Part shown: piece after piece, positions 3,024 to 36,575 of the stretch
How the letters are laid out: each line of letters opens with the position of its first letter
How positions within the stretch are numbered: the stretch's first letter is position 1
Assembly: GCA_016931075.1 (NCBI GenBank)
Contig: JAFGFF010000270.1
Coordinates: 1 to 39,377 of the forward strand
DNA: 39,377 bases
From: Pirellulales bacterium
GTDB lineage: Bacteria > Planctomycetota > Planctomycetia > Pirellulales > Thermoguttaceae
Direction of reading: 5' to 3'
The notes under the pieces: model-generated
What the model saw: only the letters and a program-made list of their open reading frames with translations
What the model was told of the DNA's origin: nothing
The model's database searches: none
Made by a program: the position numbers and the translations under genes

Positions 3024-3213
3024 CAGCCTGGGTGCCATGCCCAGCAGCCTGGGTGCCATGCCCAGACGTCCGCCTTGGCGGCGGATGGGCATGTTGGCAA
3101 GGGAGCCCCAATCTCATGCCCATCCGACGCTGAAGCGACGTCTGGGCATGGCGCCAGTGCCACCCGTTGCGGTCTCCACATGCCCACGCAAGCGTGGAGC
3201 ATGGCACCCAGGC
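3024..3213. repeat. Palindromic element cluster, family A
   Basis: It begins directly after the stop codon of the preceding gene with a perfect 21-bp tandem pair (3024-3044 and 3045-3065). The second copy opens a head-to-head inverted pair that closes near 3142-3160, with inner hairpins (CCGCC/GGCGG) in the arm. A further diverged unit lies at 3177-3213. The core is GTGCCATGCCCA and its complement TGGGCATGGCAC. Related pairs occur at 24914-24999, 26474-26637 and 30829-30936. The position suggests it may act as a 3' RNA structure for the preceding gene. Confidence 0.8.
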
Positions 3214-3482: not shown

Positions 3483-3528
3483 AAAAACAAGCCCCGAGAC
3501 CCACGCGGATCTCGGGGCTTTTTTTGTT
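3483..3528 (+). terminator. Intrinsic terminator
   Basis: A 9-bp GC-rich stem, GCCCCGAGA at 3491-3499 and TCTCGGGGC at 3510-3518, closes a 10-base loop and is followed by seven T residues (3519-3525). The upstream side is A-rich (ACAAAAACAA), so the signal could also work on the minus strand. It is the clearest rho-independent terminator in the window. It lies 460 bases after the nearest upstream stop codon and about 360 before aroF. Confidence 0.85.
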
Positions 3529-3574: not shown

Positions 3575-3656
3575 CTGTAGGGAACGGCCTCCGTGCCGTT
3601 CCGGGTCATGGAAGAACACCGCCATCGAGGAACGCCACGGAGGGCGTTCCCTACAG
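3575..3656. repeat. Palindromic element pair, family B
   Basis: Two 28-bp arms, 3575-3602 and 3629-3656, lie head to head. Each arm is itself a hairpin (CTGTAG, then an 8-bp stem starting GGAACG around a CTCCGT loop). The arms differ at two positions that pair with each other inside the hairpin, so a G-C pair in one is a C-G pair in the other. The same family recurs at 10568-10641 and 31914-32076. Confidence 0.85.
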
Positions 3657-10567: not shown

Positions 10568-10641
10568 CTGTAGGGAACGGCCTCCGTGCCGTTCCCCGGT
10601 TGACCGAACCATCGGAACGGCACGGAGGCCGTTCCCTACAG
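10568..10641. repeat. Palindromic element pair, family B
   Basis: Two 28-bp arms, 10568-10595 and 10614-10641, are perfect inverse complements separated by 18 bases. Each arm also folds on itself (GGAACGGC with GCCGTTCC). The element lies about 100 bases upstream of the SDR gene. Confidence 0.9.
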
Positions 10642-24890: not shown

Positions 24891-25446
24891 ATCTCAATTC
24901 CACCCAATTGGCTGGGTGCCATGCCCACGCTTGTCGTGGGCATGCAATAGTCTTCCCGAGATTCCCCACATGCCCACGACAAGCGTGGGCATGGCACCCG
25001 GTTAGTCGTCGGGTAGGGCCATAATCATGGCAGGAGCCTCTAAGTGCTTTTCCGGAATCATCTTGCGCGCTCGTCGATACGATTGGATCTTCCGCGACGA
25101 CCCCGAAGACCGGCAAAATCCCAAAAAACCTTCCTCTCGGCACAATCCAGAACCGAAACGTAATTATCAGAAGGCAACGCTACGGACACGGAAGTTGCGC
25201 GGGGGGAAATCCGCAACCGTCCGACCCGATCGCGTCTTGACGCGTCTCGGGCCTCCCTCCCTCGATCCTCCGGTTCGGTTGCCTCGAACGTGACCCGAGG
25301 AAATCAACGGTACCCACCTCTCCGATCCGTGGTTCGGCACACCCATGGCCGCACGGTTTGCGATGTGGTGGGAGAGAAGCGCGACGCAAGGCGTCGGATT
25401 CCCCCGGTGGCCCACCGCGGGAAGAGATCCTTACAGGAGGGAAGGC
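24891..25446. other. Gap upstream of the BON-domain gene
   Basis: A family A pair (24914-24999) occupies the left part. The rest (about 25010-25430) has open frames in several registers, but none with a ribosome site or natural protein composition. I see no RNA family. The promoter of the BON-domain gene should lie in its right end. Confidence 0.4.
24914..24999. repeat. Palindromic element pair, family A
   Basis: Two perfect 31-bp inverse complementary arms, 24914-24944 and 24969-24999, have a 24-base spacer. Each arm also contains a hairpin CATGCCCACG-CTTGT-CGTGGGCATG. Confidence 0.9.
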
Positions 25447-26427: not shown

Positions 26428-26473
26428 TTTCTTGGGCAGATAAAGTAGCACAGCAGTCTTACCAAATGAAAAT

Positions 26474-26637
26474 GGGTGCCATGCCCACGCTCGCCGTGGG
26501 CATGTAGAGATCACGGGTGGCTGGGGCATTTGCCCCAGGGCGTTCGAGTTGCATCCCTGGTCTCTGGGGCAAATGCCCCAGCCACCCATTGAGAATGCGG
26601 TGAAAGCATGCCCACGGCGAGCGTGGGCATGGCACCC
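26474..26637. repeat. Nested palindromic elements (family A around another unit)
   Basis: The outer 31-bp arms at 26474-26504 and 26607-26637 are perfect inverse complements of family A. Between them lies a second perfect 24-bp inverted pair, 26515-26538 and 26564-26587, built on the hairpin TGGGGCATTTGCCCCA. The inner unit sits about in the middle of the spacer, as if one element had inserted into another. Confidence 0.9.
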
Positions 26638-26896
26638 GAAGAAACAGTGTGGTGGTTTAGGCAGAAATCGAAAGACAGGAAAGACTCCGGTATGGCGACA
26701 CGGCATTTCGACGCACCATTGCTCGACACAATCCGAAAAACCCGCAAGTTCGGCAAAGCTTCACACGATAACTAGTCGTAGTCTCGATGCGGCTTCCACG
26801 CGATTGGTACGAGCGCGGGGCCTGACGCGGAGAAACCCAACGGCGGTGACCAAAGCCATCCGCCGAACCCCGGATCGATCTGCCGAGGAAACACTC

Positions 26897-30828: not shown

Positions 30829-30936
30829 TGGGTGCCATGCCCAGACGCCCGCCTTGGCGGCGGATGGGCATGATTTTGGGACACCCTTGCCAACATGCCC
30901 ATCCGCCGCTGAAGCGACGTCTGGGCATGGCACCCA
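30829..30936. repeat. Palindromic element pair, family A, between TPR and exbB genes
   Basis: Arms 30829-30872 and 30894-30936 are inverse complements at both ends, but their centres differ: one has CCGCC-TT-GGCGG, the other CGCT-TCA-GCG type pairing. Each arm keeps its own hairpin. Its close relative is at 3045-3160. Confidence 0.85.
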
Positions 30937-31864: not shown

Positions 31865-31913
31865 CCTAGGATCCGTTAAAGAACAACATACCGAATTGAG
31901 GTCATCGCCGTCA

Positions 31914-32076
31914 CTGTAGGGAACGCCCTCCGTGGCGTTCCGTGAACTGCTGTAGGGAACGCCCTCCGTGGCGTTCCATGAACCGCTGTAGGGAACGCCC
32001 TCCGTGGCGTTCCGTGAACCGCGCGTTTGGCCCATTTCCGCTGCCCACGGAACGCCACAGAGGGCGTTCCCTACAG
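31914..32076. repeat. Tandem and inverted family B elements between exbB and exbD
   Basis: Three direct 28-bp copies lie at 31914-31941, 31950-31977 and 31986-32013, spaced at exactly 36 bp, with an inverted fourth copy at 32049-32076 (one loop base changed). The 8-bp linkers GTGAACTG, ATGAACCG and GTGAACCG are near-identical. Any exbB-exbD message would carry four strong hairpins here. Confidence 0.92.
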
Positions 32077-32126
32077 AACAAAGTCGGTGACTTATTCCTT
32101 GACAGTGTCCTAGCGGAACCACTACC

Positions 32127-32549: not shown

Positions 32550-34646
32550 ATGGGCTGGTTCCATCGTCTCGCCGAGTTCCTCGCCAGCGCCCAGTTCTTC
32601 CTGGGTTTGCTCTGGGTGGGGCTCACGATGCTGACCGTCACGCTCTTGATCCTGATGCGAACCCGCTGGGGCCAGTCGCAGCCGCTTCGCAAATGCCTGC
32701 TGCTGTCGATCCTCGCCCACGTGCTGTTGGCCGGCTATGCGACGACGGTGCGGATCGTGGCGGGCGTGCCCGACCGGTCGGGCGAGCCGATGATGCGCGT
32801 CTCGCTGACCGAGACGGGCCCGCTGCCCGACGTGATGGAAGAACAAACCGCCCCCGCGCGAAAGCCGTGGGAGACGCCCGAGGACGAACCGATCGTCCAG
32901 TCCGAGCTGGATGACGCCTCGCGGGTCGAAGCCGACGTCGCCTCGGCCCCCGAGCGTGCGCCGACGGAGGTGAAAACCACGTTGCCGCCCGACATGCCGC
33001 TGCGCGACGTGCCGCTGGCCGACGCGGCCGAGCCCGACGCGGTTGCGCCGAGCGACCTGCCGCGGCGCCGGCAGACCTCGCCGATCAAGTCGGCTGAGCC
33101 GTTAAAAGCCCCGGCGGCGCAGCGTCGCGAGGAGTCGCCGACCGAGGTGCCGGTCGAGTCGCTTCCCGACCTGCGCGACACGAAAACCAAGCCCGAGGAG
33201 CCGACCCGCACGGCCCGGCCCGCCGTCCCGTCCGAACTGCTCAAGCCGGCAGCCGTGCTGCCGCGTCTGAAGCAGCCGGACCACACGGCCGAGTCGGGCG
33301 ATTCGCTGGTAGGGCTGGTCGACTTGCCGTCGCGCACGCCGCGCGGCAAGCCGGTCCCCGCGCCGGTCCCGACGTCGAACCAGGCGGACACCGGTCCGGG
33401 GCCCGACGCGCCCGACGGCTCGTCGCGCCGCCCGTCGCTCGACTCGCTGGCCGGCAAACGCTCGCCCGAGGACAGCCAGTTGGCCATGGTGCCGCTGGTG
33501 CGTGTCGGTCCGCCGCGAGTGGCCATGAACCGGCCCGACCAGATCGAGCACGAGGCGCCGAAGATCTATCAGCTTCGCACGCACCCGCAACGCCGCCAGC
33601 AGGCCGAACGCTACGGGGCCACGCCCGAGTCGGAAGCGGCCGTCCAGGCCGGACTCAAATGGCTCGCACGAAACCAGGAGCCTGACGGAAGCTGGAACCC
33701 TCGCCATCACGAAGGCGGGCGGGAAACGAACGTCGCCGGGCGTGACCGGCTCGGCGCGGGCATCAAGGCCGACTCGGGCATGACCGGCCTGGCGCTGCTG
33801 GCCTTCCTGGCCGCCGGACACACCCATCAGGCCGGACCCTATCAGGCAAACGTCCAGAAGGGGATCGACTATCTGATCAAAGTCCAAAAGCCCGACGGAA
33901 GCCTGGCCGGCGAGGCGACGCCGTTCGCCGTGATGTACTGCCACGCCATGGCCACGTTCGCCCTGAGCGAGGCCTACGCCCTGTCCGGCGATTCGAGACT
34001 CGACCGGCCGGTCCGCCGCGCGGTCGATTTCATCGTCGACGCCCAGGACCCGCGAGGCGGCGGCTGGCGCTACGAGCCGCGCAAACCGGGCGACACGAGC
34101 CAGTTCGGCTGGCAGCTCATGGCGCTCAAAAGCGCGCAGCTCGCCGGCGTCACCGTCCCGGCCGAGACCTGGGACGCCGCGCGGCGCTATTTGAACAGCG
34201 TCTCGTCCGGCCCACACGGCGCGTGGGGCGCCTATCGACCGGGCGACCAGCCCTCGCGACCCATGACGGCCGAAGCGCTCGTCTGCCGCCAGTTCCTCGG
34301 TCTTGCCCCCTACGACCCGGCCGCCACGACCGCGGGCGACCTGCTGTTGGCCGAGCCGCCGGGCGTCGGCGCCGACAATCTCTATTATTGGTACTACGGC
34401 ACCCTCGGCCTGCACCAACTCGGCGGCGCCCACTGGGACCGCTGGAACCGCGCGTTGCAACAAACGCTCCTCGCCCGCCAACACTCCACCGGCCCCGAAG
34501 CCGGCAGTTGGCCCCCCACCACCACCTGGGGCAGCTACGGCGGCCGCGTCTACACCACCGCCCTGTCCACCCTCTGCCTCGAAGTCTACTACCGCTATCT
34601 CCCCCTCTACACCGAAACGGCCCGAAAGCCGACGGTGCTGCGGTAG
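32550..34646 (+). CDS. TonB-like anchor fused to a terpene-cyclase-type alpha/alpha-toroid
   Basis: The 698-residue protein begins with two membrane helices (15-36 and 49-71). The second carries KCLLLSILAHVLLAGYATTV, with the Ser/His pattern common in TonB first helices. Residues ~75-350 are Pro- and Glu-rich like a TonB periplasmic linker. Residues ~357-698 are a squalene-cyclase/prenyltransferase-type toroid: repeated QEPDGSWNP, VQKPDGSLAG and DPRGGGWRYEPRKPGD with QW-like motifs and paired helices. The cyclase DxDD acid was not seen, so it is probably a binding or scaffold domain. It sits directly after exbD, so a role as the moving partner of the motor, replacing TonB, is a reasonable inference. 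Its last 180 bp are duplicated at 36396-36575. Confidence 0.85.
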   Translation: MGWFHRLAEFLASAQFFLGLLWVGLTMLTVTLLILMRTRWGQSQPLRKCLLLSILAHVLLAGYATTVRIVAGVPDRSGEPMMRVSLTETGPLPDVMEEQTAPARKPWETPEDEPIVQSELDDASRVEADVASAPERAPTEVKTTLPPDMPLRDVPLADAAEPDAVAPSDLPRRRQTSPIKSAEPLKAPAAQRREESPTEVPVESLPDLRDTKTKPEEPTRTARPAVPSELLKPAAVLPRLKQPDHTAESGDSLVGLVDLPSRTPRGKPVPAPVPTSNQADTGPGPDAPDGSSRRPSLDSLAGKRSPEDSQLAMVPLVRVGPPRVAMNRPDQIEHEAPKIYQLRTHPQRRQQAERYGATPESEAAVQAGLKWLARNQEPDGSWNPRHHEGGRETNVAGRDRLGAGIKADSGMTGLALLAFLAAGHTHQAGPYQANVQKGIDYLIKVQKPDGSLAGEATPFAVMYCHAMATFALSEAYALSGDSRLDRPVRRAVDFIVDAQDPRGGGWRYEPRKPGDTSQFGWQLMALKSAQLAGVTVPAETWDAARRYLNSVSSGPHGAWGAYRPGDQPSRPMTAEALVCRQFLGLAPYDPAATTAGDLLLAEPPGVGADNLYYWYYGTLGLHQLGGAHWDRWNRALQQTLLARQHSTGPEAGSWPPTTTWGSYGGRVYTTALSTLCLEVYYRYLPLYTETARKPTVLR
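34467..34646. repeat. 180-bp direct repeat, copy 1 (3' end of the toroid gene)
   Basis: It is the last 180 bp of the toroid gene including its TAG. The second copy is 36396-36575, same orientation, with about five base differences (roughly 97% identity by eye). Similarity stops directly after the stop codon in both. Confidence 0.9.
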
Positions 34647-36395: not shown

Positions 36396-36575
36396 CTCCT
36401 CGCCCGCCAACACTCCACCGGCCCCGAATCCGGCAGTTGGCCTCCCACCACCACCTGGGGCAGCTACGGCGGCCGCGTCTACACCACCGCCCTGTCCACC
36501 CTCTGCCTCGAAGTCTACTACCGCTACCTCCCCCTCTACACCGAAACGGCCAAAAAGCCGACGGTGCTGCGGTAG
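36396..36575 (+). pseudogene. Duplicated 3' fragment of the toroid gene
   Basis: This is copy 2 of the 180-bp direct repeat. It encodes 59 residues of the toroid C-terminus (LLARQHSTGPESGSWPPTTT ... TETAKKPTVLR) and ends at TAG 36573-36575. It has no start or toroid 5' part of its own. The two copies bracket 1.75 kb that includes the PKD/PEP-CTERM gene. It may be a remnant of a second toroid gene or a duplication linked to the arrival of that gene. Confidence 0.85.

Follow-up and report, generated by a model that had tools for sequence, protein, structure and literature searches.

The window, that is, the whole stretch of 39,377 nucleotides analysed here from a bacterium of the order Pirellulales, carries at positions 3575-3656 a doublet of two REP copies that face each other head to head. 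The REP unit is 28 nt long and follows the pattern CT-GTAG-GGAACGSC-CTCCGT-GSCGTTCC, in which a perfect 8-bp hairpin encloses the conserved loop CTCCGT. All three REP sites of the window lie between likely genes (exbB-exbD; upstream of a DAHP synthase gene), and their parts are arranged as follows.

3575-3602, plus strand: REP arm, G13-C22 version, CTGTAGGGAACGGCCTCCGTGCCGTTCC; CT, GTAG tag and 8-bp stem with a 6-nt loop
3603-3628, no strand assigned: 26-nt spacer GGGTCATGGAAGAACACCGCCATCGA between the arms of the 3575-3656 heterodimer
3629-3656, minus strand: REP arm, C13-G22 version, CTGTAGGGAACGCCCTCCGTGGCGTTCC; head-to-head heterodimer with 3575-3602
10568-10595, plus strand: REP arm, G13-C22 version
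10614-10641, minus strand: REP arm, G13-C22 version; homodimer with 10568-10595
31868-31915, plus strand: left flank of a larger element of about 180 bp that carries many REP doublets
31914-31941, plus strand: REP, C13-G22, first tandem unit, exbB-exbD (three units in all, repeating every 36 bp)
31950-31977, plus strand: REP, C13-G22, second tandem unit, exbB-exbD
31986-32013, plus strand: REP, C13-G22, third tandem unit, exbB-exbD
32049-32076, minus strand: REP, C13-G22, loop variant CTCTGTG; inverted partner of the exbB-exbD tandem units
32075-32113, plus strand: right flank of the larger element of about 180 bp

A strong terminator-like hairpin with T runs is found at 3489-3527, just upstream of the heterodimer. 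The window also contains a dispersed inverted-repeat family built on GGGTGCCATGCCCACG (3029-3210, 24913-25000, 26473-26638 and 30829-30934) and a 180-nt direct repeat, 97% identical, at 34467-34646 and 36396-36575.

As an earlier note on this DNA had described, the two arms of 3575-3656 differ at two places only, positions 13 and 22, which are facing bases of each hairpin; its account of the sister sites was exact as well, the pair at 10568-10641 having G13-C22 twice and the exbB-exbD cluster C13-G22 four times. The same note had read the difference as a compensatory change, and this stands as far as the swap itself is concerned. What does not stand is a local mutation in 3575-3656: each arm represents one of two older REP subfamilies. 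The same type of heterodimer recurs elsewhere and, with 3575-3656 included, makes up 8 of the 65 doublets in the stretches read. Kin of the spacer 3603-3628 were found in other heterodimers (C252, C134, C208 and C230).

Two stem versions and the structure that is kept

The assembly to which the window belongs, as contig 421, measures 6.06 Mb and is 94% complete; 308 kb of it, around the listed REP copies, were read directly, and this assembly, like those compared with it, is a MAG. The GTAG REP is dispersed over many contigs in 158-161 copies, a number beyond chance: an exact search with the S/S pattern finds 158 sites over the 6.06 Mb and the reversed control pattern finds none, and, when positions 13 and 22 are left free, 161 copies are recovered, 14 of them G-C and none C-C or G-G. 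With the same two positions free, 67 of 117 copies in genome G040 are G-C and one is G-G; G058 has 80 G-C copies among 107, besides one G-G copy and two C-C copies in tandem, and no G-C copies occur in G036 and G048. Over the five genomes, 161 of the 469 copies are G-C and nearly all of the remainder C-G; the swap between C-G and G-C recurs in hundreds of copies and in several genera. Free, uncompensated stem changes, the outcome that the earlier note had set against its own reading, were not seen, C-C or G-G at 13-22 being limited to four of the 469 copies (about three events).

The REP family has its home in the Pirellulales and turns up sporadically in other bacteria. An identical REP core is present in records (L043-L144) that carry the labels Gemmataceae, Desulfobacterales, Ruminococcus, Lutispora, Thiosymbion and Armatimonadota; its occurrence there may reflect either horizontal spread or binning errors, and the records from other phyla (Desulfobacterales, Ruminococcus, Armatimonadota) may include such errors.

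The covariation proposed for testing across the genome and its relatives was found, with paired changes at three of the eight stem pairs. Pair 13-22 occurs as C-G, G-C and A-T and is paired in 375 of 385 copies against 233 expected in shuffles; pair 9-26 occurs as A-T, C-G and, once, G-C, and is paired in 381 copies against 362 expected; pair 12-23 is either G-C or A-T. In 53 distinct sequences, cells changed on both sides number 21, against 6.3 in shuffles, and the covariation score is 0.177, compared with 0.069 in shuffles and 0.03-0.05 when the partners are slid. Since the copies are related by descent, these cell counts overstate the independent changes, and independent double changes are counted only as at least four. 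The innermost pair 14-21 is frequently unpaired (A.G) and is therefore not required. In single-strand DNA folding, the C-G and G-C versions are both predicted at -9.0 kcal/mol, against -4.7 for C-C and -7.2 for G-G.

It is very hard to believe that these patterns go back merely to two masters, C-G and G-C, copied many times with no structural selection acting now. Such a history would suit the relatedness of the copies, the small number of independent double changes and the minority status of G-C in the window's own genome; however, several pairs covary across different genera, mismatched intermediates are rare, and copies sampled through their flanks, blind to the REP, have almost no stem damage despite drifted flanks (see below).

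The doublets also allow the single hairpin to be distinguished from a long one. In the stretches read, 65 doublets are head-head, one is tail-tail and eight are head-tail, with 36 nt as the commonest spacer, so inverted REPs at short distance, as in a REPIN, are the main arrangement. Because the arms are near-perfect inverted repeats in every doublet, a long hairpin or cruciform of the entire doublet could in principle be the selected structure. Yet heterodimers such as 3575-3656 lose two pairs of the long hairpin and keep both small ones, and bases 13 and 22 fail to pair in one of 130 cases when both lie in the same arm (129 paired), but in 17 of 130 when they are matched across arms (113 paired). 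The conserved structure is thus the single 28-nt REP hairpin, whose 13/22 pair is kept within arms and broken between the arms of heterodimers, and selection for the long form is most improbable. Two further ideas were discarded: a preference for heterodimers, as the G-C homodimers (1 against 0.35 expected) fit random pairing, and an origin of the C/G swap in an inverted loop segment, because the loop keeps its orientation.

The RAYT gene and the predicted recognition of the hairpin

A search for the gene of a REP-associated tyrosine transposase (RAYT), also advised in the earlier note, succeeded in four other genomes, where the gene is flanked by the REP, and failed in the window's own assembly, from which a matching gene is missing. 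Among the loci fetched by pattern, an Armatimonadota MAG (L118) has a RAYT with an identical REP on both sides; relatives with 47-51% identity in G058, G036 and G040 likewise have the REP on both sides, which makes four such loci (L118, L185, L186 and L187). All four RAYTs are assigned to NCBIfam REP_Tyr_transpos (NF047646), their profile matches the solved TnpA-REP structure 4er8 (PDB), and HxH at 85-87 and Tyr 159 are invariant, the catalytic Tyr being a putative assignment. Across 396 members of the order, this RAYT is present in three and the REP in 16, and all three fall within the 16 (P about 5e-5).

In the window's own genome (94% complete), the RAYT profile search gave no match at 1e-30, and the best match to the RAYT, with 29% identity, is linked to another REP family; most REP-bearing genomes among the order members searched are likewise without a matching RAYT. 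Twelve PF01797 matches considered as candidates in the own genome were set aside, none being flanked by a doublet of the window REP. On contig C120 (L041, L183) of the same genome, a REP_Tyr_transpos gene is flanked by a second REP family, GTAGGGTGGGGCA-cact-TGCCCCACC.

The kind of element is already known. In the text describing the GTAG REP superfamily, high-copy repeats have a GTAG beside a 6-13 bp stem-loop and form head-head dimers, with subfamilies that differ by complementary stem residues, heterodimers of different stems and a presence in Planctomycetes (Di Nocera, De Gregorio and Rocco, 2013, PMC3733652), and the window REP, with its GTAG tetranucleotide 5' of a short palindrome, resembles them in each of these respects. 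It was set beside the 24 published GTAG families by their text descriptions and could be identical to one of them; among the 20 of 44 matches listed in a literature text search for the exact sequence GTAGGGAACG there was no REP paper. REPINs are also inverted REP doublets with a less conserved spacer, in which compensatory changes have been noted (Bertels and Rainey, 2011, PMC3116915); unlike them, many doublets here sit inside a repeat of about 180 bp, and the spacer can lie either way round within the same flanks. As in the REPtron with its TnpA-REP/RAYT (PMC8266576; 4er8), the RAYT is flanked by its own REP, with GTAG, hairpin and CT, and the perfect stem recalls the group 3 substrates of that system. 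The present system differs in that its RAYT belongs to a distant lineage, which shares 29% identity with the RAYT that accompanies another REP family in the window's genome, and in that this genome itself lacks the flanked RAYT. CT precedes GTAG directly in 132 of 141 copies. This is the cleavage dinucleotide reported for TnpA-REP, and stem mismatches strongly reduce the cleavage of perfect-palindrome (group 3) REPs (PMC8266576).

Very probably, 3575-3656 is a REPIN of a RAYT-mobilised GTAG REP whose stem pairing is kept for recognition by the predicted transposase. The RAYT would bind the single-stranded hairpin together with its GTAG tag and cut at CT; only copies with a paired stem would stay mobile, and the identity of pair 13-22 would matter little. 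If the paired stem is needed for RAYT action and the identity of this pair is minor, two interchangeable subfamilies, C-G and G-C, able to share one doublet, follow. The 13-22 swap would then be what is expected where a transposase recognises its repeats as folded DNA strands, and the suggestion that the folded form matters is supported by the within-arm stem covariation and by the RAYT flanked by an identical REP. The lineage of the window may have lost the RAYT that spread the copies, or the assembly may miss it.

A frozen core in drifting surroundings

At 31868-32113 and at about 22 further sites of the genome, the doublets lie inside the repeat of about 180 bp, whose weakly similar outer flanks form a long imperfect terminal inverted repeat. 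When copies were sampled by these flanks and the REP was ignored, the REP was still present, its stem nearly perfect, in 29 of 30 matches, and in this sample, drawn without a REP reference, damage falls on the stem clearly less often than on spacer or flanks. In 15 aligned sites, departures from consensus affect 9-12% of the cells in spacer and flanks against 0.4% in the REP core; for private changes the figures are 3-4% and 0.4%, with three observed in the core against about 26 expected. A tamer reading, in which the flank diversity is old and each REP copy young, is disfavoured by this deficit of private changes.

A core in which private mutations are about ten times scarcer than in its flanks is also what per-copy host selection would give if transcribed doublets, at gene ends or between genes, stabilised or attenuated mRNA. 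The intergenic position of the window copies agrees with such a role, as does the strong folding of the 82-nt doublet as RNA (-53.6 kcal/mol, z -7.7). Against it, the GTAG tag and the preceding CT lie outside the hairpin and are conserved about as well as the stem, and both are required by TnpA-REP but dispensable for RNA folding; the RAYT linkage is specific, only 9 of 424 stem cells hold a G-U pair, and Rfam contains no match for the REP, a tRNA being the sole result. An RNA function is therefore unlikely, and recognition by a RAYT remains our preferred explanation of the paired stem.

Between the same flanks, the inner 36-nt spacer lies one way round in 12 cases and the other way in 10, and it flips repeatedly, since even the close relatives C373 and C147 have it in opposite orientation. 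Moreover, doublets whose two arms share one variant number 6 against 2.2 expected (P about 0.01). The frozen core, the flips and the same-variant excess suggest that REPs exchange sequence with one another or that each copy is under selection. More tentatively, an active process, such as strand exchange, gene conversion or per-copy host selection, might hold the REP copies identical after insertion even without a detectable matching RAYT; if so, it would explain together the invariant core in drifted surroundings, the spacer flips and the excess of same-variant doublets. One site, C463:1174-1252 (L255), has the repeat of about 180 bp without a doublet and was considered as an ancestral empty site; it keeps the REP remnant TTCCCTACAG and is instead a deletion or excision scar.

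The REP doublet acts as a natural test of which structure is conserved, and its outcome is the single hairpin, not the long hairpin of the doublet. With a planctomycete REP now paired with a RAYT gene, binding and cleavage are open to testing, and the contrast between the frozen core and its drifting surroundings makes the persistence of REPs without a RAYT directly testable.
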